A DNA stretch of 32,066 nt from Chloroflexota bacterium (GTDB lineage Bacteria; Chloroflexota; Anaerolineae; Anaerolineales; UBA11579): positions 1 through 32,066 of the forward strand of contig JAMCZK010000012.1 in assembly GCA_023485685.1 (NCBI GenBank), read 5' to 3'. Shown in pieces: positions 16,238-32,066 of this stretch; position 1 is the first letter of the stretch, and every line of letters starts with the position of its first letter. The position numbers and the translations under genes were made by a program. The notes beneath the pieces were generated by a model. It was given only the letters and a program-made list of their open reading frames with translations. It ran no database searches and had not been told where the DNA came from.

Positions 16238-16558
16238 GTGGAGCCAAATAAGACCAAGCCGGCGCGGTACGCATACAATCTGACGCTGGCTGCGGTTGCC
16301 GGGCAGGTAGGCTGCATCACCGTCGTCATCATTGCCCTAGCCTTGCTGGCCGGTCTCTGGCTGGATAACCAGTTTGGAACCCGCCCGCTTTTTCTAGTAG
16401 GACTGTTGCTGGCTTCAGTGCCGGTGACTCTGATCACGATGTTCTGGGTGGTTCGCCAGGCGACCTCCCGCATAAACCGCGAATACTCGAAAGAGAATTC
16501 GCACGAATCTTCGCCCAAACAGGTGCAGGAGGATCAGGAAAGTGGAACAAAGTCGTAA
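16238..16558 (+). CDS. AtpI/AtpZ-like F0F1-ATPase accessory membrane protein (GTG start)
   Basis: Two TM helices, VEPNKTKPARYAYNLTLAAVAGQVGCITVVIIALALLAGLWLDNQFGTRPLFLVGLLLASVPVTL, directly upstream of atpB. Confidence 0.75.
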   Translation: MEPNKTKPARYAYNLTLAAVAGQVGCITVVIIALALLAGLWLDNQFGTRPLFLVGLLLASVPVTLITMFWVVRQATSRINREYSKENSHESSPKQVQEDQESGTKS

Positions 16559-17534
16559 GTGGTGGCGCTTTGGGGTGAACCGGTGGTTCGTCCTGCTGTT
16601 CATTGTGCTGAACGTGATCGCCGTTTCGGCGTACCCGCCGCTGCGACCGCACATCCAGCTTCCCGCGGAAGCGCTCACGGAGCAGCCGCTTTTTATTTTT
16701 CCCCTGGTCAATGCACCGGTATACCTGACCAACACACTAGTCGCCACACTGATCGGCGATATCCTCTTGTTGCTGATTGGTTTCGGTGTGTGGCGCGCAG
16801 TGGGCAGCGGCCAAATGGTGCCGCGCGGCCTCTCCGGCGCGGTGGAAGCCTTCATCGAAGTGTTGTACAACCTCACCGAATCGACTGCTGGCAAATGGGC
16901 CAAGCGGATTTTCCCTTATTTCGCAACGATCACATTATTAGTTCTGGTGCTCAACTGGATGGAATTGATTCCCGGTGTGGATAGCATCGGGTTTTTCAAC
17001 GAGCGCCACATCGAAAATCCCTTTGAATGCAGTTTCGTGCAGTTGCCGTTGGGGGCAGTGGGCATTACCGGAGCGAGCAACGAGTGCGTCAAAGGGGTGA
17101 TCCCCTTTGTGCGCGCTACCGCCACCGATCTAAACTTCACATTGGCTTTGGCGCTGATCGCCGTGGTGATGGTGCAAGTGATCGGCGTCCGAGCTCAAGG
17201 ACTCAGCTACTTTAGCAAATTCCTCAACGTCAAGACATTCTTTACCAAACCCGTCTTCGGCGTGATCGATTTCGGCGTCGGCATTTTGGAACTCGTTTCC
17301 GAGTTTTCCAAAATCTTCTCGTTCGCTTTTCGTCTTTTTGGCAACATCTTCGCCGGTTCGGTGCTGCTGTTCGTGATCGGCACGCTGGTGCCTGTATTTG
17401 CTCAATCCGGCGTGCTGATGCTGGAGTTCTTCGTTGGCGCCATCCAGGCGGTTGTGTTCGGCTTACTCACCATGACCTTCATGGCGCAGGCGACACAGAG
17501 TCACGGCGGCGAAGGCCACGAGGAATCGCACTAG
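16542..17534 (+). CDS. atpB: ATP synthase F0 subunit a (GTG start, overlaps previous gene)
   Basis: LNWMELIPGVDSIG; PFVRATATDLNFTLALALIAV; FSFAFRLFGNIFAGSVLL; GAIQAVVFGLLTMTFM. Confidence 0.95.
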   Translation: MEQSRKWWRFGVNRWFVLLFIVLNVIAVSAYPPLRPHIQLPAEALTEQPLFIFPLVNAPVYLTNTLVATLIGDILLLLIGFGVWRAVGSGQMVPRGLSGAVEAFIEVLYNLTESTAGKWAKRIFPYFATITLLVLVLNWMELIPGVDSIGFFNERHIENPFECSFVQLPLGAVGITGASNECVKGVIPFVRATATDLNFTLALALIAVVMVQVIGVRAQGLSYFSKFLNVKTFFTKPVFGVIDFGVGILELVSEFSKIFSFAFRLFGNIFAGSVLLFVIGTLVPVFAQSGVLMLEFFVGAIQAVVFGLLTMTFMAQATQSHGGEGHEESH

Positions 17535-17540
17535 ACAAAT

Positions 17541-17630
17541 AACCTTGCGAAGGCCAAGGAAAGCTTGCTTTCCGCAGTTGCGAGGAGGAGCGCCAGCTCC
17601 GACGAAGCAATCCCCAACCTTCGCAAGGTT
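17541..17630. repeat. REP/BIME-like inverted repeat, copy R1 (atpB-atpE junction)
   Basis: AACCTTGCGAAGG (17541-17553) and CCTTCGCAAGGTT (17618-17630); interior holds GGAAAGC/GCTTTCC and GGAGC/GCTCC stems. Confidence 0.9.
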
Positions 17631-17656
17631 GGAAAAAACTATGGAGGATTTTCGTC

Positions 17657-17893
17657 ATGGAAGGTGATTTCGTACAGGGAGCAAAGATGATCGGGGCCGG
17701 CTTGGCCATGATCGGCACCATTGGCGCCGGTGCCGGTATCGGCATCGTGGTCAGCGGCGCCGTGCAGGCCATGGGCCGCAACCCGGATTTTTCGGGAACC
17801 ATCCAGACCAACATGATTTTGGGCATTGCCTTCGCCGAAGCGGTAGCTATTTACTGCCTGGTGGTTGCGCTGCTGCTCCTCTTCGCGGTCTAG
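17657..17893 (+). CDS. atpE: ATP synthase F0 subunit c
   Basis: GAGLAMIGTIGAGAGIGIVVSGAVQAMGRNPDFSGTIQTNMILGIAFAEAVAIYCLVVALLLLF. Confidence 0.96.
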   Translation: MEGDFVQGAKMIGAGLAMIGTIGAGAGIGIVVSGAVQAMGRNPDFSGTIQTNMILGIAFAEAVAIYCLVVALLLLFAV

Positions 17894-17920
17894 GCTGCGA
17901 AGGAGTGAAAGGAGCCTGCA

Positions 17921-18658
17921 TTGGAAGCCCTTGGTCTTAATCTCGGTTACGTTTTAGTCCAGATCTTCAACTTTGCCATCCTCTTTGTTGTATTGCGCGT
18001 TTGGGTATACAAACCTATCCTCGGCCTTCTGGAGAGGCGCCGCGAGGCGATTGCCAAAGGCCTGGAAGATGCTCGCATTGCAGCAGAAGCCCGCGAGAAT
18101 GCGGAGAAGGAAGCGGAGAAACTGCTGAACGAGGCTCGCAGCAAAGCGGCTGCGGAAACCCGCGAAGTGACCCAGCGCGCGGAGCAGCAAGCCAAAGAGA
18201 TCCGTGCCGCAGCGGAAGCTACCGCTTCCAAGGCGCGCGAAGCAGCGCTGGCCGAAGTAGAGACGGAACGGGCCCGCATCCTGAGCGACCTGCGCGGCCA
18301 GGTGGCCGCACTTGCGGTGGCGGCTGCCCAAAAACTTATTGGGGAAGCGCTGGATGCCAAGAAGCAAAAAGCCCTCATTGATGAGTTCTTCTCGGGCGTA
18401 AAAGCCGGGAAGGTGACCGTGTTGGAGGGCACTGAAGTGAGCGGGGCTGCGGCGGTGGTCACCAGCGCCCTGCCGCTTAACAAAGAAGAACAGGACGCCG
18501 TGCAGAAGCAAGTACTCCAGTCGCTGGGTGGCAAAGGGGAAGTCACTTTCAGGGTGGATCCCAACATCTTGGGTGGCCTGGTGGTGCGCGTAGGCGACAA
18601 GGTGCTGGACGGTTCAGTGTCGGGCCAGTTGGGCGCCCTGCGCCAGTCCATGCGATAA
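17921..18658 (+). CDS. atpF: ATP synthase F0 subunit b fused to the C-terminal domain of subunit delta (TTG start)
   Basis: N-terminus NLGYVLVQIFNFAILFVVLRVWVYKPILGLLERRREAIAKGLEDA (b); C-terminus VTSALPLNKEEQDAVQKQVLQSLGGKGEVTFRVDPNILGGLVVRVGDKVLDGSVSGQLGALRQSM (delta). Confidence 0.9.
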   Translation: MEALGLNLGYVLVQIFNFAILFVVLRVWVYKPILGLLERRREAIAKGLEDARIAAEARENAEKEAEKLLNEARSKAAAETREVTQRAEQQAKEIRAAAEATASKAREAALAEVETERARILSDLRGQVAALAVAAAQKLIGEALDAKKQKALIDEFFSGVKAGKVTVLEGTEVSGAAAVVTSALPLNKEEQDAVQKQVLQSLGGKGEVTFRVDPNILGGLVVRVGDKVLDGSVSGQLGALRQSMR

Positions 18659-18835
18659 CCAAGGAAAGCCGAAGTTACGAGGAGCTGAGCGAAAGCGAGG
18701 CGACGTGGTAATCAGCTTTCCGCAGTTGCGAGAGCCTGCCCCGAGTGAGCCGCTTGCGGCGACGAGGGGAGGCTAAAAGCCAGAGCCTGTCCCGAGCGAG
18801 CCGCTTTGCGGCGACGAGGGAAAGCAATCCCCATG
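18658..18835. repeat. Degenerate dispersed intergenic repeats (GCAGTTGCGAG...GCGACGAGGG...GCAATCCCC type)
   Basis: GAGCCTGCCCCGAGTGAGCCGCTTGCGGCGACGAGGG and GAGCCTGTCCCGAGCGAGCCGCTTTGCGGCGACGAGGG in tandem; the flank GCTTTCCGCAGTTGCGAG is shared with the interior of R1. Confidence 0.75.
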
Positions 18836-18844
18836 ATTGTTGGA

Positions 18845-18875
18845 AAGACGTCTCGGCATCGAGGCGTCTTTTTGT
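18845..18875 (+). terminator. Rho-independent terminator downstream of atpFH
   Basis: AAGACGTCTCG-GCAT-CGAGGCGTCTT followed by TTTG; 11-bp stem with one GU pair. Confidence 0.85.
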
Positions 18876-18890
18876 TATAGAATCTAGTTC

Positions 18891-18990
18891 GTCATTGCGA
18901 GGAGGCGTTTTTGAGCCGCTGTTGCGGCGAAAGCCAGAGCCTGCACTGAGCGAAGCGAATGTGTGGCAATCTCCACCAAGGTAAAGTGAT
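18891..18990. repeat. Dispersed repeat (GTCATTGCGAGGAG...GAGCGAAGCGAA...GGCAATCTCC type)
   Basis: Resembles the 18725-18835 element and the R1 interior; noncoding. Confidence 0.6.
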
Positions 18991-19036
18991 GTGACTAGGA
19001 TTCGAGGTTTTAACCGGTAATACAAATCTGCTTGTC

Positions 19037-20578
19037 ATGGCTACTCTGTCAGATCTTCTAAAAGATTTTCCCACTGCGAATGAGGTTCCACCGGTCGAGG
19101 TCAAGGGCATTGCCGTTGACTCGCGCCAGCTAAAGCCTGGGGACCTTTTCTTCGCTGTGATTCAAGGTGTGGATCGATACAAGTTTCTAGATCAAGTTGT
19201 AGAGAGAGGTGCTGCCGCGGTGGTGGGAGAACGCTCAGGCATCGAGCTGAGCATTCCGCACATCCAGGTGAAGGACACGCGCGCCGCGTTAGCGCATGTG
19301 TCCGCGGCGTTCTTCGACCAGCCTGCCAAAGACCTGACCATGATTGGCGTTACTGGCACGGACGGCAAAACCACCACCTCGAACTTCATTTATCACATCT
19401 TGCAGTCAGCCGGTTTGCCGACTGGAATGATCAGCACTGTGAACGCCCAGATCGGCAGCCAGGTGCTGGATACCGGTTTCCATGTGACCACGCCGGAAGC
19501 TTTCGACACCCAGCGTTACCTGCGTCAAATGGTGGAGGCCGGGCTGACTCACGCGGTGTTGGAGATGACTTCGATCGGTCTGGCCCAGCAGCGCGGCGCG
19601 CGGCCCAGGGAATTCGACCTAGGCGTGGTGACAAATATCACCCACGAACACCTCAATGATCATGGTACCTATGAAGCCTATTTTGATGCCAAAGCCTTGC
19701 TATTTGAAGGTCTGAGCCAGCCTTATGAAAAGAAACGGCCGGCCGAACGGTTGGCTGTGCTCAACCGCGACGACAAATCGTATGAAGGCCTGGCAAAGCG
19801 CATCCGGGTGAAAAAACTTTCATATGGTGTACACCCAGAAGCCCAATTGCGCGCTGTGGATATTGAAAATCATCCGGATCGATTGATCTTCACGGCACAA
19901 GGTTCGGGCTTTGAATTCGGTGTGCAAACGAAAATGTTCGGTGCGTTTAACGTATCCAACGCACTGGCAGCCATCGGTGCAACGGTGATGGGTCTGGGCA
20001 TTGATCCCAAAGCGGCGCAGGCGGGCATTGCTGCCCTGGAAGGCGTGCCCGGGCGCATGGAGCGCATCGAAATGGGGCAGGACTTCACCGCCATCGTGGA
20101 TTTCGCCCATACGCCCAACGCGCTGAAAGTTGCTCTGGAAGCCGGGCGCCAACTCACTCAGGGCAAGGTGATCGCCGTGTTTGGTTCGGCAGGACTGCGT
20201 GACAAAGCCAAGCGCCGTATGATGGCCGAGGTAGCCGCCGAGCTGGCTGACACCAGCGTGCTAACCGCTGAGGATCCACGCACCGAATCACTGGATGGCA
20301 TCCTGGAGGAAATGGCCGCCGGCGCCAAAAGCAAAGGTGGCAAAGAAAGCAAGAGTTTCTGGCGCGTGCCTGATCGCGGCGCGGCAATTTCATTTGCCTT
20401 GCTGCAAGCAAAGCCGGGCGACCTGGTGATGGTGTGCGGCAAGGGCCATGAGCAATCCATGTGTTTCGGGGAAACCGAATACCCTTGGGACGATCGGGTG
20501 GCGATGCGCGCCGCGCTGGCGGAGTTGTTGGGCGTCGAAGGACCGCAGATGCCGAAGCTGCCCACCGCGGGTGCATGA
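19037..20578 (+). CDS. murE: MurE-like Mur ligase (UDP-N-acetylmuramyl-tripeptide synthetase family)
   Basis: GVTGTDGKTTTSNFI; HVTTPEAFDTQRYLRQM; VVTNITHEHLNDHGTYEAYFDAK; GVPGRMERIEMGQDFTAIVDFAHTPNAL; TAEDPRTE. Confidence 0.85.
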   Translation: MATLSDLLKDFPTANEVPPVEVKGIAVDSRQLKPGDLFFAVIQGVDRYKFLDQVVERGAAAVVGERSGIELSIPHIQVKDTRAALAHVSAAFFDQPAKDLTMIGVTGTDGKTTTSNFIYHILQSAGLPTGMISTVNAQIGSQVLDTGFHVTTPEAFDTQRYLRQMVEAGLTHAVLEMTSIGLAQQRGARPREFDLGVVTNITHEHLNDHGTYEAYFDAKALLFEGLSQPYEKKRPAERLAVLNRDDKSYEGLAKRIRVKKLSYGVHPEAQLRAVDIENHPDRLIFTAQGSGFEFGVQTKMFGAFNVSNALAAIGATVMGLGIDPKAAQAGIAALEGVPGRMERIEMGQDFTAIVDFAHTPNALKVALEAGRQLTQGKVIAVFGSAGLRDKAKRRMMAEVAAELADTSVLTAEDPRTESLDGILEEMAAGAKSKGGKESKSFWRVPDRGAAISFALLQAKPGDLVMVCGKGHEQSMCFGETEYPWDDRVAMRAALAELLGVEGPQMPKLPTAGA

Positions 20579-20635
20579 CCTTGCGAAGGTTGGCCTTGAA
20601 GAAAAGTTTGTATTCAAGTCGACCCTTCGCAAGGT
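20578..20635. repeat. REP/BIME-like inverted repeat, copy R2 (abuts the murE stop)
   Basis: ACCTTGCGAAGG (20578-20589) and CCTTCGCAAGGT (20624-20635); inner stem CTTGAA (20595-20600)/TTCAAG (20613-20618). Confidence 0.92.
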
Positions 20636-20661
20636 TTAATTACCTCGGGCCTTCCTATTAA

Positions 20662-22196
20662 ATGTTTACACCAAACTTAAAACGAAACATCCTGTTCGCT
20701 GCCGCTGTCTTGCTTCCCTCAATCCTGGCGATCTGTCTGCCAGTATTTTTCTGGGGGAGATCGATTCTCGAATTCGTGCCCAATTCGTCCGATGAAATTA
20801 TTTACTGGCGGGAGATAAAGACGTTTTCCGAATACGGCTTTGGCGGCGGCCAATATTCCACAGATGAGCGCCCGGCTCTGTTTTCAGCCAGCCCATTCGG
20901 GTCGCATGGGCCGGCATTTGCCATGTTGTTCGGTTCACTGGGTCGAATGGTGGGGTGGCGGGAGATTCCGCAGTCCTCATTCATCTAATTCTTGTACCTT
21001 TGGTTTTGCTGCTGGCAATCAATATTGCCAAACCAAATCTAGGGCAGCTAGGCGTGTTGATCTTGCTTGTGGTCACTTGGTGGCCGTTGCAACTTTATAT
21101 TCCCAGTAATATGCAAGAGGTCGTGCATATGAGCGCGGCAATCCTCGTGGCCGCACTGTTTTATCGGTACATGACTGACCCGAAAATAAAGACCAGGTAC
21201 GCGGTGTACATAGGTTTACTTCTCTTATTCTTGATACCGCTGCGTTTTATCTGGGGCTTTCTTGTTTTTCCATTAATCCTTTTTTATCCGATCAAAAAAG
21301 ACTGGAAGACCTGGCTAATGGCCTTTGTTGGCACTGGATTGGTTTTACTGGCCGGTGCGGCATTCGTACGCATTTTTTATTCGTATTACCCATGGTATTC
21401 GAACGAACTCTTGGACCTTTTACTCAACAGCCCCCTCCAAGGCATCCGAGAAATGATCCGGCATTTCACCGCATCGATTGGCCAGCTTTTTTCCCTCAAC
21501 CAAGGGTTGCCCCTGGTCATCTTGGTTCGATATCAAATAATCGGGCTCTTGATCGCGGTTGTAGCATGGTTAGTCTTGATTGTAAGATCGAAGACGGGGA
21601 TTAGTTGGGATAGGGCTCGTGAGCCATTATTCCATGCGATCAGCCTGGTTTCCGTTCTGGCGTTTGTGTTGTTTTTTTATGATGTGCTGGATACGCGTGA
21701 TTACCGCATGTTCATTTCGCCGTTATTACTATCGTGTATTTTGCTGATACTCTTGGGACGATTAAAATTTGTTTATCCGATCATTGCACTCAACGTTGTC
21801 TTTGTTTTTTCTTTCCTTTCCTACTACCCGGTGTACCGATATCCAAATTTCCACGTCGACCCACAGCTGCTAAGCGAAGTCCACCGGACTATCAATCCCT
21901 ATTTGCAATTTGATTCGGTGGCCAATCGCTGGTGCAATACCATCTCAATAAGCAAATATGGAGATGTGCAAGCGATCGGCTACCCGCTGACCGCCATACA
22001 AAGTGGATTCGGCATCACCACGATTTTGGATTGGAAGGAACTAAGCGGCCAACCGCTGAAGGCCAAGTATGTGTTAATGGACCCTGTTTCTCTGATGCCT
22101 GATTTTGGTAAGCTTGCCAATCGTTTTGATTTGCTTGAAATAAACCAAACTCCGTTGGGGACGCTGTATATAAATCCTCACGCTGATTGTGAATGA
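20662..22196 (+). pseudogene. Multi-TM membrane protein, possibly glycosyltransferase-like, split by an apparent -1 frameshift near 20950-20965
   Basis: ORFs 20662..20988 and 20955..22196 overlap in different frames around G-rich GGTGGGGTGGCGGG; TM-rich protein continues in the second frame. Confidence 0.6.
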
Positions 22197-22198
22197 TT

Positions 22199-22232
22199 AA
22201 AAAAGGGCGGGCTCATAGCCCGCCCTTTTATT
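22199..22232. terminator. Bidirectional Rho-independent terminator between convergent genes
   Basis: AAAAAGGGCGGGCTCATAGCCCGCCCTTTTA. Confidence 0.85.
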
Positions 22233-22248
22233 GCAGAATGGATTTGCT

Positions 22249-22581
22249 TTAAGCTTCAAAGGCTTCAAAAACGGGCGGGAAGGTGAGCAGTAGACCAAGA
22301 GCCAGCAATACCAGGGTCCAGGTGAAAACACTGCGCAGATTGAGCTCCTTGTTCTTCCAGAGGGCATTCAGAATCAGCCAACTGAGCAACCAGACGGCGA
22401 TGCCAAATGTTGTCTTGCCGGATAACGGGCCGGCCGGAACATACAAGACAAGCGCGTTCTTCAGAGCTTCGCTAAGTACAGCTCCGGTCGTCAGGATGCC
22501 GATGGTCAGTCCGCCGATACCGGCGGAGATCATCGCGGCCGCTGCGGGGCCGCTAGGGATTGTTTTGGTTTGAGCACTCAT
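22249..22581 (-). CDS. Small membrane protein of unknown function
   Basis: 3-TM hydrophobic ORF downstream of a second TM protein on the same strand. Confidence 0.6.
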   Translation of the reverse strand: MSAQTKTIPSGPAAAAMISAGIGGLTIGILTTGAVLSEALKNALVLYVPAGPLSGKTTFGIAVWLLSWLILNALWKNKELNLRSVFTWTLVLLALGLLLTFPPVFEAFEA

Positions 22582-22607
22582 GAAATTTCTCCTTAACCTT
22601 TAGCGGA

Positions 22608-23144
22608 CTACAAAATGGGGGCGGCTTTGGTGATCAGGGCGCCAAAGAGGCCGGCGACGCCTGCAGCGGCGAAGGACAGGATGAAAAGAATGACGATCAT
22701 CCAACGAAGATTTTTGTATTTATCCTGCGCTAATGCCGGGCCATAACGGAAGATCAGATAAAGGACTGCCACAGTGAGGATAGGAGAGAACCAGGCAATA
22801 TGCTCCTTCCATTCCATGGCAAAAGTGTGCCATGCCGAAAGGTTGGGATCCGCCAGTAAAAAGGATCGCGGGTACTCCAACAGGTTGGCGCCTTCGGGTG
22901 GGGCGGCACGGTACCAGGGGTACACGATATAGGTCCCGCTGATGACAGTAAGAAATGAAAGCAATGCCATGATGCCTGTTTCCCACTTCAGGCGGGTGAT
23001 GCGCTCGATAATGCCCTTGCCGGTCACCCAGCTTTCTCTTAAGCTGTACAGGCCGACCAGGCCGGCGGTGAAGGCCAGCAAATACGCTGCGCCGAACACC
23101 ATGCCGTGAAGCGCGGTCCAGATTTCTCTTGCGGTGAGAACCAT
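22608..23144 (-). CDS. Multi-TM membrane protein of unknown function (start MVLTAREIWTALHGM preferred over the longer ORF to 23234)
   Basis: Several TM helices with conserved-looking His residues; the upstream part of the ORF lacks membrane-protein character. Confidence 0.6.
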   Translation of the reverse strand: MVLTAREIWTALHGMVFGAAYLLAFTAGLVGLYSLRESWVTGKGIIERITRLKWETGIMALLSFLTVISGTYIVYPWYRAAPPEGANLLEYPRSFLLADPNLSAWHTFAMEWKEHIAWFSPILTVAVLYLIFRYGPALAQDKYKNLRWMIVILFILSFAAAGVAGLFGALITKAAPIL

Positions 23145-23299
23145 ACGATGCCTCCTTAAGGCTATCTTTGTATCCGGCCTTGGCGGATACTTACGGATAC
23201 TTAGTAACGATGCAAGTATGCACATAGTTGCCAAAATTTGACAGGGACAAATGGCATCTGGTGGTTACCTATTCCCTAGGGAAAAAGTCCCGATATACA

Positions 23300-23325
23300 A
23301 AAGGACGGGCCATAGCCCGTCCTAT
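23300..23325 (-). terminator. Rho-independent terminator of pnp
   Basis: Minus-strand hairpin AGGACGGGC-TATG-GCCCGTCCTTTT just after pnp. Confidence 0.75.
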
Positions 23326-23356
23326 AAACCTTCAACCTTAAACTTGTTACCGTCTT

Positions 23357-25600
23357 TCAGCGCCGATCTCGAAAGCCGCCGCGCCCACCGCTGCCGCGGT
23401 CTCCACCGCGTCCGCCATCGCGGCGCCCGACGCCAGGCCGTCCGCCGCGGTCGCCACCCGGCCGCCGGCCACCGCCGCCCTTATCGCGCTCGCGGGCTTC
23501 TTCGGGGGTCCAACCCTCGAGGACAGCCTGCCGGCTGAGACGGATCTTGCCGCTCGGATCGATATCCGTGATCATCACCGTGAGTTCGTCGCCTACTTTT
23601 GCTACCGATTCGACGGATTCCACTCGCGTGCTATCCAGTTGGGAAATATGCACCATGCCATCCGTGCCGGGCATGATTTCGACAAAGGCGCCGAAATCCG
23701 TGGTGCGCACGACTTTGCCTGTGTAGATTTTGCCGATCTCGGGCGTCTCGGTCAGCGCTTCGATGCGCTCACGCGCCATCTGGGCTGCAGCTCCATCATC
23801 GGAAGCGATGAACACCGAGCCGTCGTCGGAAATGTCGATCTTGGCTCCGGTTTCTTCCTGGATGGCACGAATGGTCTTGCCGCCTGGGCCAATGATTGCG
23901 CCGATCTTCTCCACCGGCACCATCACGATCGTGATGCGCGGGGCATGCGGCTTCAACTCAGGGCGCGGCGCGGGAAGGACTTCAAGCATCTTGTCCAGGA
24001 TGTGCTTGCGCCCGGCTTTCGCCTGCTGCAGTGCTTCTGCCATCATCTGTGTGGTCAGTCCGGAGATCTTGATGTCCATCTGCAAGGCAGTGATGCCTTT
24101 GTCGGTACCGGCCACTTTGAAATCCATATCGCCCAGGTGGTCCTCGATGCCCTGGATGTCGCTAAGGATCTTGTAATTGCTGCCATCGGTGATCAGCCCC
24201 ATGGCGATGCCGGAAACGGGCGCTTTGATCGGCACGCCCGTATCCATCAGCGCAAGTGTGGAGCCGCAGACAGAGGCCATCGATGTCGATCCGTTTGAAG
24301 ATAGGCACTCTGAAACCAGACGTAAGGTGTAAGGAAATTCTTTTTCGGGAGGAATCACAGGCACCAAAGCGCGCTCGGCCAATGCGCCGTGTCCGATTTC
24401 TCGCCGGGAAGAACCGCGCAGGAATTTGACTTCGCCGGTGGAGAAAGGTGGAAAGTTGTAGTGGTGCATGTAGCGTTTCAATTCGATGGGGGACAGCGTG
24501 TCCAACTCTTGAGCTTCACGAGGCGTGCCCAACGTGGCCAGGGTGAGCACTTGCGTCTCCCCGCGAGTGAAGAGTCCCGAGCCATGGGCGCGGGGACTGT
24601 AGTCCACTTCGCACCAGATGGGGCGGATCTCGGTAGGTTTGCGTCCATCCGGGCGGATACCCTGCTCGAGGATGCGGCGGCGCACCACAACCTTCTCAGC
24701 CGCAGTGTAGGCTTCCTTTACGTTGGCGGCAAGCTCCACATCTTCAGGTGCCAATTCCGCGACAACAGTGTCGCGCAGCGCGTCAATGGCCGCATATTGT
24801 TCCGCCTTGCCCAAGCCTTTGTTGAAGATTTCTTCCAATTCCGACTGGCTGCGCGCCAAAACTTTCTGCTTTAGATCTTCGGGTACGGCAAAATGCTGAT
24901 AGTCGCGCTTAGCCTTGCCGACTTCCTGGGCCATTTGCAATTGCAGATCGATGAGGGGTTGGATCGCCTTGTGCGCTTCCTCAAGCGCGGACACTATGGT
25001 GTCTTCATCCACTTCGTTGGCGCCGCATTCCACCATCAGGATGGCGTCGCGGGTGCCCGCCACGCGCAGATCCAGATCGGATTGCTCGAGCTGCGGGTAG
25101 GTTGGATTGATGACGAAGCCTCCATTGACGCGCCCTACGCGTACCGCGCCGACCGGTCCGTTCCAGGGGATGTCGGAGATCATCAATGCTGCGGATGCCG
25201 CGTTGACTGCAATGACGTCGATGACATTTTCCTCATCCGCAGATAAGGAATACATGATCACCTGCACTTCATTGCGCAGGTCCTTGGGAAACAGCGGGCG
25301 TAGCGGGCGATCGGTGAGGCGCGCAGTCAGGATGGCGCTCTCGCTCGGACGCCCTTCGCGGCGGAAGAACGAACCGGGGATCTTGCCTCCGGCGTACATA
25401 CGCTCTTCGTAATCGACGCTAAGGGGGAAAAAATCGATGCCCGCGCGGGGCGCAGGCGACATGGTGGCGGTCGCCAGGATCAGCGTATCGCCCAGGCGGG
25501 CCGTGACGGCGCCGCCGGCTTGGCCAGCCAGCTTGCCGGTGGCAAAGGTCAGCTCCTGGTTGCCTACCTTCGTGGAAAACTTCTTTGATTCGGGTTGCAT
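23357..25600 (-). CDS. pnp: Polyribonucleotide nucleotidyltransferase with RG/RGG-rich C-terminal tail
   Basis: [62 protein letters not shown]1 [33 protein letters not shown]. Confidence 0.97.
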
Positions 25601-25787
25601 AGATGCTCCTTAGGCTTGTTCAGCCTGCAGCCCGCTAGTTCAGGAACTGGAATTTGATTACAAACGAGAGGTTGCCGCAAGGCGCACTCGATATTTGTAC
25701 CCATATTCCAATGCCTAACCAGCAGGCATTTCTAGTTGACTAGGTGGATGGTTTTGGTGTTTTCTCTTTACCGCTCGCCCCCGGGAT

Positions 25788-25826
25788 GGCCGCAACAAAT
25801 GTGGCTGGCCTTTTAAGCCAGCCACA
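25788..25826 (-). terminator. rpsO-pnp intergenic hairpin (terminator or processing site)
   Basis: ATGTGGCTGGC-TTAAAA-GGCCAGCCACAT. Confidence 0.65.
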
Positions 25827-25829
25827 TTA

Positions 25830-26105
25830 TTAACTCTTTCGGCGAATCTTCAGGCGATCGGCAAGGGCCACGTAGCCCTCGTAATTGCTCCGGCGCAAGT
25901 ATTCCAGCAGTCGGCGGCGCTGGCCAACCATACTAAGCAAACCACGCCGTGAAGCTGCATCTTTATTGTGGGTCTGCAGATGGTTGGTGAGCTGTTCGAT
26001 GCGGCTGGTAAGCAAGGCTACCTGAACCTCTGCGGATCCGGTATCGCCTTCGTTGCGGTGGAACTCTTGAATAACTTGCGTTTTCTTTTCTTTTGGCAGT
26101 GGCAT
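25830..26105 (-). CDS. rpsO: 30S ribosomal protein S15
   Basis: GDTGSAEVQVALLTSRIEQLTNHLQTHNKDAASRRGLLSMVGQRRRLLEYLRR. Confidence 0.98.
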   Translation of the reverse strand: MPLPKEKKTQVIQEFHRNEGDTGSAEVQVALLTSRIEQLTNHLQTHNKDAASRRGLLSMVGQRRRLLEYLRRSNYEGYVALADRLKIRRKS

Positions 26106-26178
26106 GACGTCTGCGTCTCCTTTTGTGCAGGTCTCCAGGCAAGCAGCCGTAGCCGCTTGCCGGTCGAGTCGAAAACAA

Positions 26179-26184
26179 ATTATA
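26179..26184 (-). promoter_or_regulatory. Putative -10 box (TATAAT) of rpsO
   Basis: AAGGTATAATTTG on the minus strand about 75 nt upstream of the rpsO start; -35 unclear. Confidence 0.3.
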
Positions 26185-26206
26185 CCTTATATGAAAAGTA
26201 AGAAGA

Positions 26207-27001
26207 TTACTTGATTAAAGACCGCAAACGCTCGCGGCTTTCATCGGGCAGAGCCTTAAATACCTGACGAGCTAGCCAGCGGGCGCCCTCGCTGGGAGTC
26301 TCCGCGAGGATCTGTTGAAGGAAGAATTCGGTTTCCTTTGAGCTGAGGCGGGCTACCGCGATCAGCAAGTCTGCCAGTTCGGGCCGGATTTTTCTATCGG
26401 GATCTTTGCATGGTTCTGCAAGTAGGTCAAACAATTTTGGCAGATTGGAGAATTGGTTGTCAAAGAGTAAATTTCGTAGCACACCCAGAGCCAGGATTTG
26501 CCTACGCGAATCTTTACTTGCCATAAGAATGGCTGCAAACTCCAGCAGTTCTGATTGATTGTGGGTGCGAAGCGTTTTGGTGCCGCTGGAAGCCAACTGG
26601 GGGACCAGGAATTGTTCACGGTTTTCCTGCGCCCAGCTTGCTAGGCGGTTCGTGATTTCGGTTGGCACGTCTGTGGGTACAGAGCCCAGCAGATAGATTG
26701 CCAGCAAGCGAGTCTCGAGGTTGGGCCTTGCCCAAAGCCCATCAGCAATTTTTATGGCTTCAGCAGGATATTGTTTGGCCTGTAGGCTCAGCTCCAGTTG
26801 TAACTGCTTGAGCAAAGGTGGCGGCACTTCGTAACTCGCGAGCACAGGTCGCATACCCTTAACCCGGCCCTGGCGATGGACGGGGACCTCGTGATTCCTT
26901 AGCAAATCTTCAATGCCGCGCAGGTAGTTGGCTGGCTGCTGAAATAAATCCGAAAGTTGCACCACCTGCTGCTGCAGACGGCCAAGTTCGACGGCAGGCA
27001 T
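26207..27001 (-). CDS. Alpha-helical (HEAT-like) repeat protein of unknown function
   Basis: Leu-rich helical pairs throughout; start lies 2 nt after the LOG-family stop, suggesting co-transcription. Confidence 0.55.
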   Translation of the reverse strand: MPAVELGRLQQQVVQLSDLFQQPANYLRGIEDLLRNHEVPVHRQGRVKGMRPVLASYEVPPPLLKQLQLELSLQAKQYPAEAIKIADGLWARPNLETRLLAIYLLGSVPTDVPTEITNRLASWAQENREQFLVPQLASSGTKTLRTHNQSELLEFAAILMASKDSRRQILALGVLRNLLFDNQFSNLPKLFDLLAEPCKDPDRKIRPELADLLIAVARLSSKETEFFLQQILAETPSEGARWLARQVFKALPDESRERLRSLIK

Positions 27002-27003
27002 GA

Positions 27004-27537
27004 TTAGGGTTGCGGCAGCATAGAAACAGCTGACCCGATATTTGGTGCAAAACTAAGCAGGTCACGATGCCCAACTGGGATGTTGGCGTTCATTTCGGTA
27101 TAGATGGTCACGAAGACTCGACGCCAGCCATCGCCTATGAGGATGAGTGGGCGCGCGGGGAGTGACTGGGTCTGCATCTGGCTCCACATGGTCGCGATCT
27201 CAGCCAACGTGCCTACGCCACCGGGCAGTGCAAGGGCGGCGTCGCAGCTCTCGATGAGGCAATACAGGCGTTCACGCAGGGTTGGAAGGCGGCGTTCCTC
27301 ACCAACCCAAGCGTTCGCCCTGGCTTTGCGCCATACCTCGATTTGGTCGCAGGTGACGCCGATGGTATGGCCGCCGGCCTCTGCAGCCCCGCGAGAAACG
27401 GCTTCCATGGTGCCCATATAGCCCCCCGTGATTACAACGTGGCTGGCGTTCGCTAGCAACTCACCAAGGCGATGAGCTTCTTTGTAGGCCGCTTCACCGG
27501 GAACAGGAGAAGCGGAGCCGAATACAGTGATATTCAT
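27004..27537 (-). CDS. LOG-family protein (Rossmann, possible phosphoribohydrolase)
   Basis: ITGGYMGTMEAVSRGAAEAGGHTIGV and ALPGGVGTLAEIATMW (PGGxGTxxE motif). Confidence 0.88.
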   Translation of the reverse strand: MNITVFGSASPVPGEAAYKEAHRLGELLANASHVVITGGYMGTMEAVSRGAAEAGGHTIGVTCDQIEVWRKARANAWVGEERRLPTLRERLYCLIESCDAALALPGGVGTLAEIATMWSQMQTQSLPARPLILIGDGWRRVFVTIYTEMNANIPVGHRDLLSFAPNIGSAVSMLPQP

Positions 27538-27545
27538 TTCTTTAG

Positions 27546-27602
27546 AACCTTGCGAAGGTTGATGAAAGACAAGTTAATCTTTCAAATACCCTTCGCAAGG
27601 TT
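27546..27602. repeat. REP/BIME-like inverted repeat, copy R3 (overlaps the methyltransferase 3' end)
   Basis: AACCTTGCGAAGG (27546-27558) and CCTTCGCAAGGTT (27590-27602); inner stem TGAAAGA (27563-27569)/TCTTTCA (27578-27584). Confidence 0.93.
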
Positions 27603-28490
27603 AGATATCCGTTTTTCCGCTAATTTCACATAGCTCCTGCTGGTTTCGTATCCCACGTAAGCGCGACTTGTCGCCAGCGCGGCCAATGCCGTCTGGCCGC
27701 TGCCCATGAAAGGGTCGAGCACGACTTCACCGATATACGTGTAGAGTTCGATCAGGCGTTGCGGCAGCTCTTGCGGAAAGGGCGCCGGGTGGCCGATTCG
27801 TTTTGCGGAAACCGCGGGAAAGGTCCAGACGCTTTTGCTGTTCTGGAGGAACGCCTCCTTGCTGATGCTGTTTTTACGGTCGGCCGGCTTGGGGCGGCCA
27901 AAACTACCCTTGCTAAAGACCAAAATGTATTCGTGCACGTCGCGCAGTGTGGGGTTGCTGGCGCTGCGCCACGATCCCCAGGCCGTGGAGACACTGGAGC
28001 TGGCGGCCTTGTCCCAGATGATCTCGCCGCGCATTAGAAAACCCAACGAAAGCAGATCGCTGATGATGAAGGCATGCAGGGGTATGTATGGTTTGCGCCC
28101 CAGATTGGCGACGTTGATGCAGGCGCGGCCGCCGGGCGCCAGCACGCGTAGAGTTTCGGCCCAGACGCGGCGCAGCATGGCGAGATATTTGTCTAGTTTG
28201 AGGTTCTTGTCATATTCTTTTCCAGCGTTGTAGGGAGGTGAGGTAACCATCAGGTGCACGCAAGAATCAGGCAGCTCGTGCATATTTTCGCTGCTGTGGG
28301 TGAAAATATGGTTGCGTGCAGGCGCAGGCAACGGATTTTCGATGTATTTAACGGGGTCTTCAGTGGGCTGATCCGCGTAAAGCGAGCTTTTATAAAACGC
28401 ACTAGCGTCGTGGTTTACGCGGCCTGCAGTGCCGAACGAGGAGCTGCGAGTGCCTTTTTGGCGATGTGAAGGCTCCCTGTTGGCTGGCAT
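27582..28490 (-). CDS. Site-specific DNA methyltransferase (N4-cytosine/N6-adenine type, TSPPY before FxGxG)
   Basis: VTSPPYNAGKEYD, APGGRACINVANLGR, VVLDPFMGSGQTALAA; start set at MPANREPS. Confidence 0.88.
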   Translation of the reverse strand: MPANREPSHRQKGTRSSSFGTAGRVNHDASAFYKSSLYADQPTEDPVKYIENPLPAPARNHIFTHSSENMHELPDSCVHLMVTSPPYNAGKEYDKNLKLDKYLAMLRRVWAETLRVLAPGGRACINVANLGRKPYIPLHAFIISDLLSLGFLMRGEIIWDKAASSSVSTAWGSWRSASNPTLRDVHEYILVFSKGSFGRPKPADRKNSISKEAFLQNSKSVWTFPAVSAKRIGHPAPFPQELPQRLIELYTYIGEVVLDPFMGSGQTALAALATSRAYVGYETSRSYVKLAEKRISNLAKGI

Positions 28491-28539
28491 ATCCACACTG
28501 TAACCGAAACCGCGCGCCGCGGCAAGAATTGTGCTTTTC

Positions 28540-29634
28540 TTAATTTGGCCAGATGGCTCCCGCGCGCACGATCCCGCCAGCGGGTACATCCCCCTTTATC
28601 GTAGCGCCGTTGCCAACACGCGCCCCTGCGCCGATGCGAACGTTCAGATTAATCGTCGCGCCCATGCCAATGAGCGTGCCTTCGCCTATTGATACGGCGC
28701 CGGCGAGAATCGCCCCTGGCGCCAGGTTGACGTAGTCGGCCAGTACGCAGTCGTGCGAGACGACAGCGCTGGTGTTCACGATGCAGCCAATGCCCAGCCT
28801 TGCCGAGGAGCCGATATATGCGTGCGGAAATACCTGCGCACCTGCACCTAATTCGGCGTTCGGCTCAACAACCGCGCTAGGATGAATGAGGACGGGAAAT
28901 TCGAAACCCGCGTTTCGCAGTTTATCGAAGATCAGCATTCGGCTGCTCATGGCGCCGATACCGCCCACTGCATTCAACGCCAGCTTGCAGCCTGCGGCGC
29001 GGATTGCCGCTAGCGCGTTTTCCCCACCGAGGACATTGCTGTCCAGCACGCGGTCGCCGGGCTGGCGACCATCGTCGATAACGCCGATCAGTGTATATCC
29101 GCCCGCGGCGCGCAACAAGTCGATGACTGCTTTACCGTGACCGCCAGCGCCGTAGACAATGACGGAGTTCGGCTCTTTAGCTATTGTGGGGACGGGAAGG
29201 TTTTCGCGTCGGCTGCCTTTTGCCACTACGGCGCGAACTTGTTGCTCCGTGATAATAGGGCCGATTGGTAGGGTGGATAAATCCAGCTTTTCTTTTTGGG
29301 CCAATTGCAACGCTGGTTGCGTGATGCGCAGCCCATCAGGGAGGCCAACCGCCTTCGTTTGCTTTTCCTTCTTTGGTGGCTTCCAGTCTTTAGATTCGGC
29401 CAAATAGCAGAGGGTCGCTCCGGCTTTTATTAGCTCACCAGGTTGAGCGGTTACTCCGACCAGGTATCCAGCTTTTCCTGCAGTCAGTTCAAAGGTGGAT
29501 TTCGTAGTCTCCAGCGTCGCCAGTAAAGCGCCGGCTTTCACCTTTTGCCCCGGCTTGGTATGGTAAGCAACCAGGCGGGCTTCGTTTTCGTTTGGGTTGA
29601 TGAGAGGAATGGTTACCGCGATGGCCGCGCTCAT
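28540..29634 (-). CDS. Fusion: N-terminal lipoyl/biotinyl domain, E3-binding-like domain, C-terminal NeuD/left-handed beta-helix acyltransferase
   Basis: Lipoyl VKAGALLATLETTKSTFELTAGKAGYL; PSBD-like RITQPALQLAQKEKLDLSTLPIGPIITEQQVRAVV; NeuD-like VYGAGGHGKAVIDLLRAAGGYTLIGVIDD with hexapeptide repeats. Confidence 0.82.
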   Translation of the reverse strand: MSAAIAVTIPLINPNENEARLVAYHTKPGQKVKAGALLATLETTKSTFELTAGKAGYLVGVTAQPGELIKAGATLCYLAESKDWKPPKKEKQTKAVGLPDGLRITQPALQLAQKEKLDLSTLPIGPIITEQQVRAVVAKGSRRENLPVPTIAKEPNSVIVYGAGGHGKAVIDLLRAAGGYTLIGVIDDGRQPGDRVLDSNVLGGENALAAIRAAGCKLALNAVGGIGAMSSRMLIFDKLRNAGFEFPVLIHPSAVVEPNAELGAGAQVFPHAYIGSSARLGIGCIVNTSAVVSHDCVLADYVNLAPGAILAGAVSIGEGTLIGMGATINLNVRIGAGARVGNGATIKGDVPAGGIVRAGAIWPN

Positions 29635-29641
29635 GGTCGCT

Positions 29642-30691
29642 TTATACCATCCTTCGCGCGACAGCGATGATGTCATCCACACCGGGGAGCGTCTTGTCCT
29701 CGAGGGGCGCTGATGCCGGGATCGGCATGTCGGCGGCCGCCACGCGTTGGGCGGCTTTCAGCTGCCCGGGAAAAGCCTGAACTGCGCGGGCGAATACTTC
29801 CGCACCCCAGCCCAATGTGTAATTGCCCTCTTCAATGGCAAGCAAGCGCTGGCTACGTTCTAGCGATTGCTGCAGTGAAAGTTCGAGTGCACCATCTGCC
29901 GAGAAAGGAGCAAGCTGGCTGGGGACAACTAGTTCGCAGAAGATTTCATGCTCGAAGGCGAGGCGCAGCAATGCTTCGCGGGCCAACTCGGCCATGTAGC
30001 CATAAGCGGTCAGCGTGATTACTGGGGGCGACGCTCCTTTGAGCCGCAACGTGTGGGTGGTTGCGTAGCTATCTTTGCGGTTGTGGATTTCGACTTCGAA
30101 ATCCTTCAAGGCTTCCCTGTCCAGAACCGGTTTCAAGTACAGCAATTTGTTTTCGATGAAAAGCACGGGGCCAGGGTCTTCCACGATGGCTTTATGCAGC
30201 ATGTCGCCTGGGTCGGCCAATGTGTTGGCGGCCAGCGTCCGTAAACCGGGCATGCCGAGAAACAGTTTTTCCAGCGTTTGGCTGTGAGTGGGGCCGTATC
30301 CGCGGCGGCCGCCCATGGGAGTGCGGATGACCAAGGGCACTTCGACCTGGTCGTTATACATGCTGCGGAATTTGCTCAAGCTGTTGATAACCTGGTCGGC
30401 GATGAGCGTGGTGAAATCGCCGAACATGATTTCGGCCACCGGGCGCAGGCCGCGTAACGCCATGCCTGCGGCCACGCCTACGATGGCAGCCTCCGAAACG
30501 GGGCTGGTCCATACGCGCTCGGGATATTTGCTGGACAGACCCTTGCTGACCTTGAATGCGCCACCGTAGGGATCGAGCAGGTCTTCACCGATCAGATAAA
30601 CGCGCCCGTCCTCGGCGAAGGCCTGATGCAGGCCGCGATTGAGGGAATCCAGGACAGTCTGCCTTGCGGAGCTTGGCTTTGAAGTCACCAT
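29642..30691 (-). CDS. Thiamine-diphosphate-dependent dehydrogenase E1 component, beta subunit (pyruvate/acetoin dehydrogenase type)
   Basis: GLSSKYPERVWTSPVSEAAIVGVAAGMALRGLRPVAEIMFGDFTTLIADQVINSLSKFR; MGGRRGYGPTHSQTLEKLF. Confidence 0.9.
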   Translation of the reverse strand: MVTSKPSSARQTVLDSLNRGLHQAFAEDGRVYLIGEDLLDPYGGAFKVSKGLSSKYPERVWTSPVSEAAIVGVAAGMALRGLRPVAEIMFGDFTTLIADQVINSLSKFRSMYNDQVEVPLVIRTPMGGRRGYGPTHSQTLEKLFLGMPGLRTLAANTLADPGDMLHKAIVEDPGPVLFIENKLLYLKPVLDREALKDFEVEIHNRKDSYATTHTLRLKGASPPVITLTAYGYMAELAREALLRLAFEHEIFCELVVPSQLAPFSADGALELSLQQSLERSQRLLAIEEGNYTLGWGAEVFARAVQAFPGQLKAAQRVAAADMPIPASAPLEDKTLPGVDDIIAVARRMV

Positions 30692-30717
30692 TCGAACTAG
30701 TTCAACCCTTTGCAAGG
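30662..30717. repeat. Degenerate REP/BIME-like copy R4, containing the E1-beta start codon
   Basis: CCTTGCGgAGc (30662-30672) and CCTTtGCAAGG (30707-30717); inner TTGAA/TTCAA. Confidence 0.6.
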
Positions 30718-30737
30718 CTGGAGACAACCCGGCATCG

Positions 30738-30816
30738 CCTTGCGAAGAGCTTGCCCTGAGCAGAGCGAAGGGGTGGACTTGAAACCATCATCGCCGTACG
30801 TTAACCCTTCGCAAGG
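30738..30816. repeat. REP/BIME-like copy R5, downstream flank of the RAYT
   Basis: CCTTGCGAAG (30738-30747) and CCTTCGCAAGG (30806-30816); the second arm encodes the RAYT C-terminus. Confidence 0.82.
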
Positions 30817-31370
30817 CTGGAATGAACGTATTTTTCATATTCTTTTGGGTTATCAAAAAACCGCAAAACTAAATTGCCTTGGTTATCTGTCTTTTGGTCA
30901 ATCCACCCAAGATATTTGCTGTATTTCCACTGTTCAGGTTTTTTCGTCAATCCAGCCTTAACCGGGTTTAGATGAATATAGCAGCAAAGTTGTAAGGCAT
31001 ATTCATCAGTTTCAATCAGTCTGAATTTGGCGCGACTTTCAAATAAAGTACCAGTTCGATTTTGCTGCTGGTTGAAAGCTTGTGAGTAGCTGTTGAATAA
31101 TTTTTGAACGAAACGGGAGGCTTGCTCTCGATTTTCCGTTTCAATAAGAAAATGATAATGGGTTGGCATAAGACAATAGACAACCACTGTGACGCCGAGT
31201 TGAGTACTGTAGTCCGTCATCCGGTTCAGTAAAAAATCATAATTATCGCCTGAAGTAAAAATTGCTTGCCTGTTGACGCCCTGATTGTAAACGTGAAAGT
31301 AGATGCGTTCGCCGTCTGGGATTTGGCCAGCCTTGCGAAGGGCTGACTCGCTAAGACTTGAAGACTTCAT
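30801..31370 (-). mobile_element. REP-associated tyrosine transposase (RAYT; IS200-like Y1/HUH transposase)
   Basis: 189-aa intact ORF; HUH motif MPTHYHFLIE; NSYSQAFNQQQNRTGTLFESRAKFRLIETDEYALQLCCYIHLNPVKAGL; bounded by REP-like repeats. Confidence 0.9.
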
Positions 31371-31385
31371 TCAACCTTCGCAAGG
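31331..31385. repeat. REP/BIME-like copy R6, upstream flank of the RAYT / 3' end of E1-alpha
   Basis: CCTTGCGAAGG (31331-31341) and CCTTCGCAAGG (31375-31385); inner TTGAA (31358-31362)/TTCAA (31370-31374). Confidence 0.93.
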
Positions 31386-32042
31386 CGTTTGGTTTCAGGC
31401 AGCGGGTCGGCTTGGGCTTGCTCGAACGCGGCTGCCACCTGGGTTTTCACTTCGGCTTCGATGTCATTGCGCTGCCGGGCGGTCAGGCGCTTCCCGTGGA
31501 TTTGCACTGGGTCGCGGCTGGCGCGCAGCTTGGCCATCGCCTTCTTGTCGCGCGTGTCATCGCCCTTGGAGTGCGGGCCGAAGCGCACCGTGTGCAGCAC
31601 CAAAGCCCGCGGGCCGCCTTCTTTGCGCAGCATACGAATTTCTTCGCCTGCCGCCGCACTGATTTCTCGAACATCGCTGGTGTCCACCTCGCGGCCATGG
31701 ATGCCGAAGGCGGCAAACCGCGCCGGTATCTGGCCGGCGAGCGCCAGTTCAATCGGTGTGGTCTGCGCGATATGGTTGTTCTCGAGTACGAACAGGATCG
31801 GCGCTTTCCATAGTGAGGCGATGTTCAGGCTCTCGTAGACTACGCCTTCGCCGAGTGCGCCATCGCCAAGAAAAGCAATGGTGATTGCCTTGCTGCCTTT
31901 CGCTTTTTCTGCCAGCGCGGTGCCCACTGCGACAGGCGCCGTGCTGCCTAATATTCCGTTCGAGTAGAAATCCTTCCAATGCAGATGTTGCGAGCCGCCC
32001 AGCCCGCCGCAAACACCGGTAGCTTTTCCCATCAGCTCGGCA
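31367..32042 (-). CDS. Thiamine-diphosphate-dependent dehydrogenase E1 component, alpha subunit (5'-truncated by contig end)
   Basis: GKATGVCGGLGGSQHL, GDGALGEGVVYESLNIASLWKAPILFVLENN (ThDP motif GDG...NN). Confidence 0.9.
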
Positions 32043-32066
32043 AGATCGGAAGAGCACACGTCTGAA
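32043..32066 (+). other. Illumina TruSeq adapter sequence (assembly contamination)
   Basis: AGATCGGAAGAGCACACGTCTGAA, exact 24-nt match to the read-1 adapter start; the ORF N-terminus MCSSDL is its translation. Confidence 0.97.

Follow-up and report, generated by a model that had tools for sequence, protein, structure and literature searches.

The right-hand part of the 32,066-nt stretch of DNA analysed here (the window) carries a series of short, paired hairpins at gene junctions, which raises the question of what these repeats are and by what means they reached their positions.

Double-hairpin repeats in the window

A preliminary description of the window had listed five good copies and one degenerate copy (R4) of the repeat, and reading the six doublet sites bore this out, as it did the structure proposed for them: the arms are 6-3-6 palindromes (AACCTT-GCG-AAGGTT), and each copy contains two of them in inverted orientation. 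With up to one mismatch allowed, the window contained 11 occurrences of the arm CCTTGCGAAGG, where 1.04 were expected, and none of 100 shuffles reached 11. Every arm match was located to the right of 17.5 kb, in agreement with the earlier observation that the left 17 kb is free of copies.

R1 (17541–17630) is a long-form doublet of 90 nt, located between atpB (16542–17534) and the gene that follows it in the atp operon, as identified with Pfam. Between its arms, AACCTTGCGAAGG/CCTTCGCAAGGTT, lies a dispersed repeat of another kind (..TTGCGAGGAGG..GACGAAGCAATC..). The 60-nt core of R1 (17553–17612) was also found free-standing elsewhere in the genome (C32, C30, C37, C14, and C50) and is therefore a repeat in its own right that is nested within the doublet. 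R2 (20577–20636), a short form of 60 nt, starts at the stop codon (TGA) of a Mur-ligase gene (19037–20578), and R3 (27546–27602), a short form of 57 nt, is neighbored by genes assigned with Pfam to the LOG/SLOG family (27004–27537) and to the N4/N6 DNA methylases (27582–28589). The degenerate doublet R4 (30660–30719) was recovered by a covariance model with an E-value of 0.025. R5 (30736–30818) is a composite doublet of 83 nt in which a 'CTTGCCCTGAGCAGAGCGAAGGGG' segment is nested within one arm and the left arm has one mismatch, and R6 (31329–31387) is a short form of 59 nt. Together with the gene between R5 and R6, these three copies form a block (30661–31387) between the E1-alpha (31367–32059) and E1-beta (29642–30727) genes, that is, at the pdhA/pdhB junction. 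The window also contains a member of another dispersed repeat family (GCCAGAGCCTG..GAGCGAGCCGCTT; 18728–18960), for which dozens of partial matches exist at other genomic sites, and a segment resembling it is nested within the R5-type composites.

Folding and covariation of the arms

Each copy had been described as able to fold either as one long stem or as two small hairpins. In single-stranded DNA folding, the long stem prevailed, with energies of −16 to −25 kcal/mol and z-scores of −4.7 to −7.9 for R1, R2, R3, and R6, whereas a lone arm hairpin was worth only −3.1 kcal/mol. R4 (z −1.5) and R5 (z −2.2) folded weakly.

The core arm positions 3–13 were almost invariant (304 of 319 cells paired). 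The outer arm position was A or G and covaried between the two arms (10 double changes in 29 copies, p = 0.0002), which shared lineage could likewise explain. The inner half-site GGACTTGAA appeared as a decaying consensus. The inner pairings previously noted in R2 and R3 do exist, the R2 pairing being simply this consensus half-site, but the selection on structure that they had been taken to suggest found no support in the family: among the 29 copies, 112 of 261 inner-stem cells were paired versus 109.9 when the arms were re-dealt among the copies (p = 0.41), and a gapped test gave p = 0.90. Selection on the inner stem was rejected on the basis of the re-dealing test.

Distribution of the family across the genome

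The source genome is a 1.71-Mb draft that is 76% complete. The pattern CCTTGCGAAGG-N10..40-CCTTCGCAAGG identified 21 exact doublets genome-wide versus none in the reversed-pattern control, and 68 single arms were detected when both strands were counted. A covariance model built from the 21 exact doublets returned 46 loci. After one doubtful match was removed and one long form was added, the curated total was about 46 doublets and a few solitary arms, so the family extends far beyond a few copies. The short form (57–62 nt) was represented by 29 copies. The composite form of ~84 nt, in which 'ATTCGCTTCGCTCAGGGCAGGCTC' is nested in one arm, was represented by about 11 copies, R5 among them, and the junctions of these composites were identical, indicating that the composite was amplified as a unit. 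A third form, containing a nested 'GGAAAGC..TTGCGAGGAGG..GACGAAGCAATC' segment, comprised R1 and about five others. Because the segment nested in R1 occurs alone in the genome, the doublet family includes BIME-like mosaics. At one locus (C42; L075 1447–1766), three 84-nt composite doublets were arranged near-tandem, 106–130 nt apart.

Strictly intergenic positions were occupied by 29 of 50 members, compared with 7.9% of random 60-mers; with the crude ORF calling used, this fraction is a lower bound, because several 'intragenic' calls (e.g., R1) involved spurious antisense ORFs. The genes flanking the intergenic copies were co-oriented in 16 cases, convergent in nine, and divergent in three. 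The 32-kb contig that forms the window held six of the ~47 copies versus 0.9 expected (p = 3e-4), and three versus 0.8 expected when R4–R6 were excluded (p = 0.05). The clustering of copies near newly acquired REP-associated tyrosine transposases (RAYTs) has been reported before (PMC2817692).

No target-site duplication of ≥3 nt was found in any of 31 copies, and the bases just outside the doublets showed only a weak preference for C. Neither the consensus nor the flanks contained a GT(A/G)G tag at the foot of the hairpin (outer flank information ≤0.27 bits), and there was no T enrichment in the doublet flanks. Intrinsic terminators were rejected as an identity for the repeats, given flanks without a T-tract and copies within operons, such as R1 in the atp operon.

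A predicted RAYT gene between R5 and R6

The gene between R5 and R6 (30801–31370, minus strand) encodes a protein of 189 amino acids with an HUH motif (H71-Y72-H73), a catalytic tyrosine (Y131), and a YIHLNP motif. Its reading frame opens within R6, which provides the start codon and the first ~15 codons, and closes within R5, which contributes the last codons and the stop. The gene is present as a single copy in the genome. Y1_Tnp was the only Pfam domain detected (E 9e-9), and the NCBIfam model REP_Tyr_transpos matched at 2.8e-20 with a score of 72.7, slightly below the cut-off of 80. H71, Y72, H73, Y131, H133, N135, and P136 were invariant among 43 aligned relatives. The AlphaFold model (pLDDT 91) ended in a final helix at 175–188, and its best match in a fold search of the PDB was 4ER8 (TMq 0.63, TMt 0.71, 2.7 Å), which is the E. 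coli TnpAREP in complex with a REP hairpin, followed by ISDra2 and IS608. A PDB sequence search returned nothing beyond spurious matches to 14-3-3 and weak ones to ISDra2. Judged by its sequence and modeled fold, the protein is a RAYT.

The genome contains other Y1_Tnp genes (L124–L127) of the NH[FV]H/WQR type. No repeat arm was found within about 1.5 kb of these loci (stretches of ~3 kb were read), and these transposases were rejected as partners of the repeats.

Empty sites and history of the locus

The R4–RAYT–R6 block was missing from the intact pdhA/pdhB junction in nine same-genus genomes, which aligned on both sides of it, and the atpB/atpE junction of all nine lacked R1. At the level of sequence comparison, these empty sites are an indirect sign of a putative mobilization by the RAYT. 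They lie, together with the RAYT itself and the mosaic nature of R1 and R5, with their nested unrelated repeats, beyond what the preliminary description contained. The insertion seems to have cost the E1-beta gene its original ATG. To judge from the reading frame, E1-beta may now start at an in-frame ATG inside R4 (MVTSKPSSARQ..), in which case the repeat would have been turned into coding sequence.

No RAYT of this type was found in the other genomes of the family that were searched. One same-genus genome without the RAYT (G012) contained four doublets. In addition, a solitary arm, AACCTTCGCAAGGTG, was located at its E1-alpha/E1-beta junction (L057 8254–8385), where the block sits in the window; this arm may be a remnant of the same event.

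RAYT relatives and their arms

Of 301 genomes belonging to the order, 143 gave a match, the relatives being compared from draft genomes. Inverted repeats were present in 110 of 140 flank windows around 70 RAYT loci, compared with 26 of 126 control windows. The flanking doublets varied by RAYT clade (GTGACAGTCAC, CCTCCCGCAGG, GTGCGTCGCAC, AGACTTCCGAAGTCT, CGTCCCGAAGG, and others), and GTGACAGTCAC doublets occurred in 66 of the 301 genomes. Many arms were 15-nt mini-hairpins: 21 non-redundant arms averaged 3.7 of six pairs versus 1.6 after shuffling, with the CGTCCCGAAGG arm, which has no clear self-complementarity, as one exception. Over 64 RAYTs, arm similarity was correlated with protein similarity (Mantel r = 0.62; maximum of 2000 permutations, 0.14).

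In a wider scan of 84,980 species genomes, the RAYTs closest to that of the window (L128, L129, and L132/L022) carried CCTTGCGAAGG doublets; the closest relatives were those of Anaerolineae A05DMB24 and Chloroflexota CSMAG_1213, and CCTTGCGAAGG doublets also flanked RAYTs in Bacteroidota (Bacteroidetes), Calditrichota (Calditrichaeota), Ignavibacteria, and KSB1. When 149 RAYTs were ranked by similarity, the carriers of this doublet occupied ranks 1, 2, 3, 4, 9, 20, 39, 65, and 69 (p = 1e-4). In the phylogenetic tree, the window RAYT formed a clade (97/98) with L022, L128, L129, L131, and L049, whose arms were identical or related. L049 within this clade had AACCTTCCGAAGGTT and the nearby L029 had AACCTTGACAAGGTT, with the same stem and a different loop. 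The occurrence of one stem with different loop triplets (AACCTT-GCG/GAC/CCG-AAGGTT) among RAYTs hints that recognition may depend on the stem and not on the loop or on a tag.

CCTTGCGAAGG doublets with a gap of ~7 nt were also dispersed in other genomes (G257, 37; G273, 23; G245, 10; G214, 9; G058, 5). No RAYT flanked by a CCTTGCGAAGG arm was detected in G257, G273, G012, or other repeat-rich genomes, indicating that the presence of the repeat and that of the RAYT are only partly coupled. The cognate RAYT of the orphan doublets in G257, G273, and G012 may have been lost or left unassembled, or another RAYT may mobilize them.

Placement among RAYT subclasses

In a motif census of the RAYT family, NHYH was found in 119 of 150 proteins and THYH in 22; FE was found in 101 and FQ in 39; and a YIHxNP motif was present, most commonly as YIHLNP (39). 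These motifs are near, and not identical to, those published for subclass 2.1 (NH[YF]H, FQ, and Y[IV]HLNP). In the tree, the RAYTs adjoined proteins of Legionella, R. rubrum, Sporomusa, and Pseudoalteromonas, apart from E. coli RayT; the split from these proteins was supported at just 87/67, and the reference set was small and assigned to subclass 2.1 by motif alone. The C-terminal HTH/DnaA_C-like extension of subclass 2.1/TIRYT proteins (median 238 amino acids) was absent from the proteins examined here, which are ~190 amino acids long. On motifs and tree, the window RAYT, a short protein, probably lies nearest to subclass 2.1.

A survey published in 2018 reported no REP-like sequences for TnpAY1 subclass 2.1, which it equated with the TIRYTs (PMC6006769). 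In a literature search that covered few subscription journals, we found no report on the RAYTs of Anaerolineae. We consider the chances even that these proteins represent a large undescribed RAYT subclass (~190 amino acids; [NT]HYH, F[EQ], and YIHxNP; no C-terminal HTH; Anaerolineae, several FCB and candidate phyla) with a tag-less REP code, in which each clade reads its own ~15-nt mini-hairpin with a fixed stem of 5–6 bp, the inverted doublet serving both as its own ends and as a dispersed repeat.

Origin of the repeats

The copy number and dispersal of the doublets, the RAYT bracketed by two of them, the empty sites, the same arm around the closest RAYTs, and the co-variation of arm and RAYT together make it very probable that the repeats are REPINs, non-autonomous elements putatively spread genome-wide by the RAYT encoded in the same window. 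The system is best read as a REPtron with REPIN/BIME-like elements, in which the customary GTAG tag is missing. With its copy number, intergenic bias, RAYT, and cognate relatives, the family also vindicates the initial assignment to dispersed REP/BIME-like repeats at gene junctions.

Under the mechanism we propose, a RAYT dimer would recognize the two arms, AACCTT-NNN-AAGGTT, as single-stranded DNA hairpins (AACCTTGCGAAGGTT) and cut next to them with Tyr131 (HUH H71/H73), and the hairpin would be moved, probably by way of single-stranded DNA on the lagging strand, the route used by IS200/IS605. The lineage would have acquired such a REPtron horizontally, because no other searched genome of the family has the RAYT. 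The RAYT may then have seeded copies near itself and subsequently genome-wide, with some copies acquiring unrelated nested repeats and continuing to amplify as 84-nt composites. Any host function, for example as mRNA 3' structure, would be secondary.

An alternative that we consider unlikely treats the RAYT block as a conventional transposon of the IS200-like/TIRtron kind ended by double palindromes, and the dispersed copies not as REPs but as a MITE family derived from it by internal deletion. The repeats do stand at both ends of the gene in the manner of TIRs, some TIRs of TIRtrons are double-palindromic and form moderately abundant families (PMC3733652), and the RAYT appears closest to the subclass equated with TIRYTs. 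However, it is a single-copy gene, each dispersed unit is one whole doublet without any RAYT remnant, two doublets lie on the R5/R4 side, and the C-terminal HTH of TIRYTs is lacking. Mechanistically, this alternative overlaps the REPIN reading, and the difference is mostly one of nomenclature. It is less likely still that the copies owe their spread to a different Y1 transposase in the genome, or to template switching or gene conversion. Only the window RAYT is bracketed by the arm, its relatives are bracketed by it as well, and the other Y1 loci lack the arm in the stretches read, even though further Y1_Tnp matches exist in the source genome (G000) and some genomes have copies without a detected cognate RAYT. 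The least probable alternative, host-selected RNA or DNA structures (terminators, mRNA 3' stabilizers, or nucleoid-protein sites) with a RAYT adjacent by chance, would suit strong hairpins that often directly follow stop codons and the predominance of co-oriented and convergent over divergent flanking genes, but not the positions of R1 within the atp operon and of the RAYT block within pdhAB, the flanks without T-tracts, the lack of inner-stem covariation, the absence of the repeats from nearly all same-genus genomes, or an arm that follows the RAYT across phyla.

Comparison with known systems

Among domesticated bacterial transposases, RAYT/REP systems are the best known, and they have been described mainly from proteobacteria with GTAG-tagged REPs. 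The many RAYT/hairpin pairs collected here constitute a natural panel in which the recognition sequence and the protein change together with no tag, so that hairpin reading and the choice of strand and cleavage site become testable by partner swaps. Furthermore, hairpin doublets were found here for RAYTs whose apparent nearest subclass had no REPs in the 2018 survey (PMC6006769).

Compared with the TIRYT/TIRtron systems of subclass 2.1 (PMC3733652, PMC6006769), which supply the closest reference proteins in the tree and some TIRs that are double palindromes forming repeat families, the proteins described here are shorter (~190 amino acids, without the HTH), the arms have no GGGGWSAS, and the copies are widely dispersed doublets. 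Enterobacterial BIMEs share the mosaic organization, in that other repeat families are nested in R1 and in the 84-nt composites, and C42 has three units in a row, whereas the mosaics here combine one arm type with unrelated nested segments. In comparison with REPINs (PMC3116915), the family lacks the 16-mer/GTAG REP, its arm being a perfect 6-3-6 mini-hairpin; it has fewer copies (about 46 versus the usual >100 for REPs); and its spacer shows no demonstrable compensatory change. Like REPINs, it consists of two inverted units around a poorly conserved spacer that form one hairpin, is dispersed mainly in intergenic regions, is linked to a RAYT, and has solitary arms that are rarer and degenerate. 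REPtrons with GTAG REPs differ in having the GT(A/G)G tag, and the motifs found here (NHYH, F[EQ], and YIHxNP) are not those of subclasses 2.2, 2.4, and 2.5. Several features of REPtrons (PMC2817692, PMC8266576; 4ER8) recur in the window and its relatives: a Y1 HUH transposase, with a predicted fold that best matches 4ER8, is flanked by inverted palindromes, and the RAYT and its repeat co-evolve.
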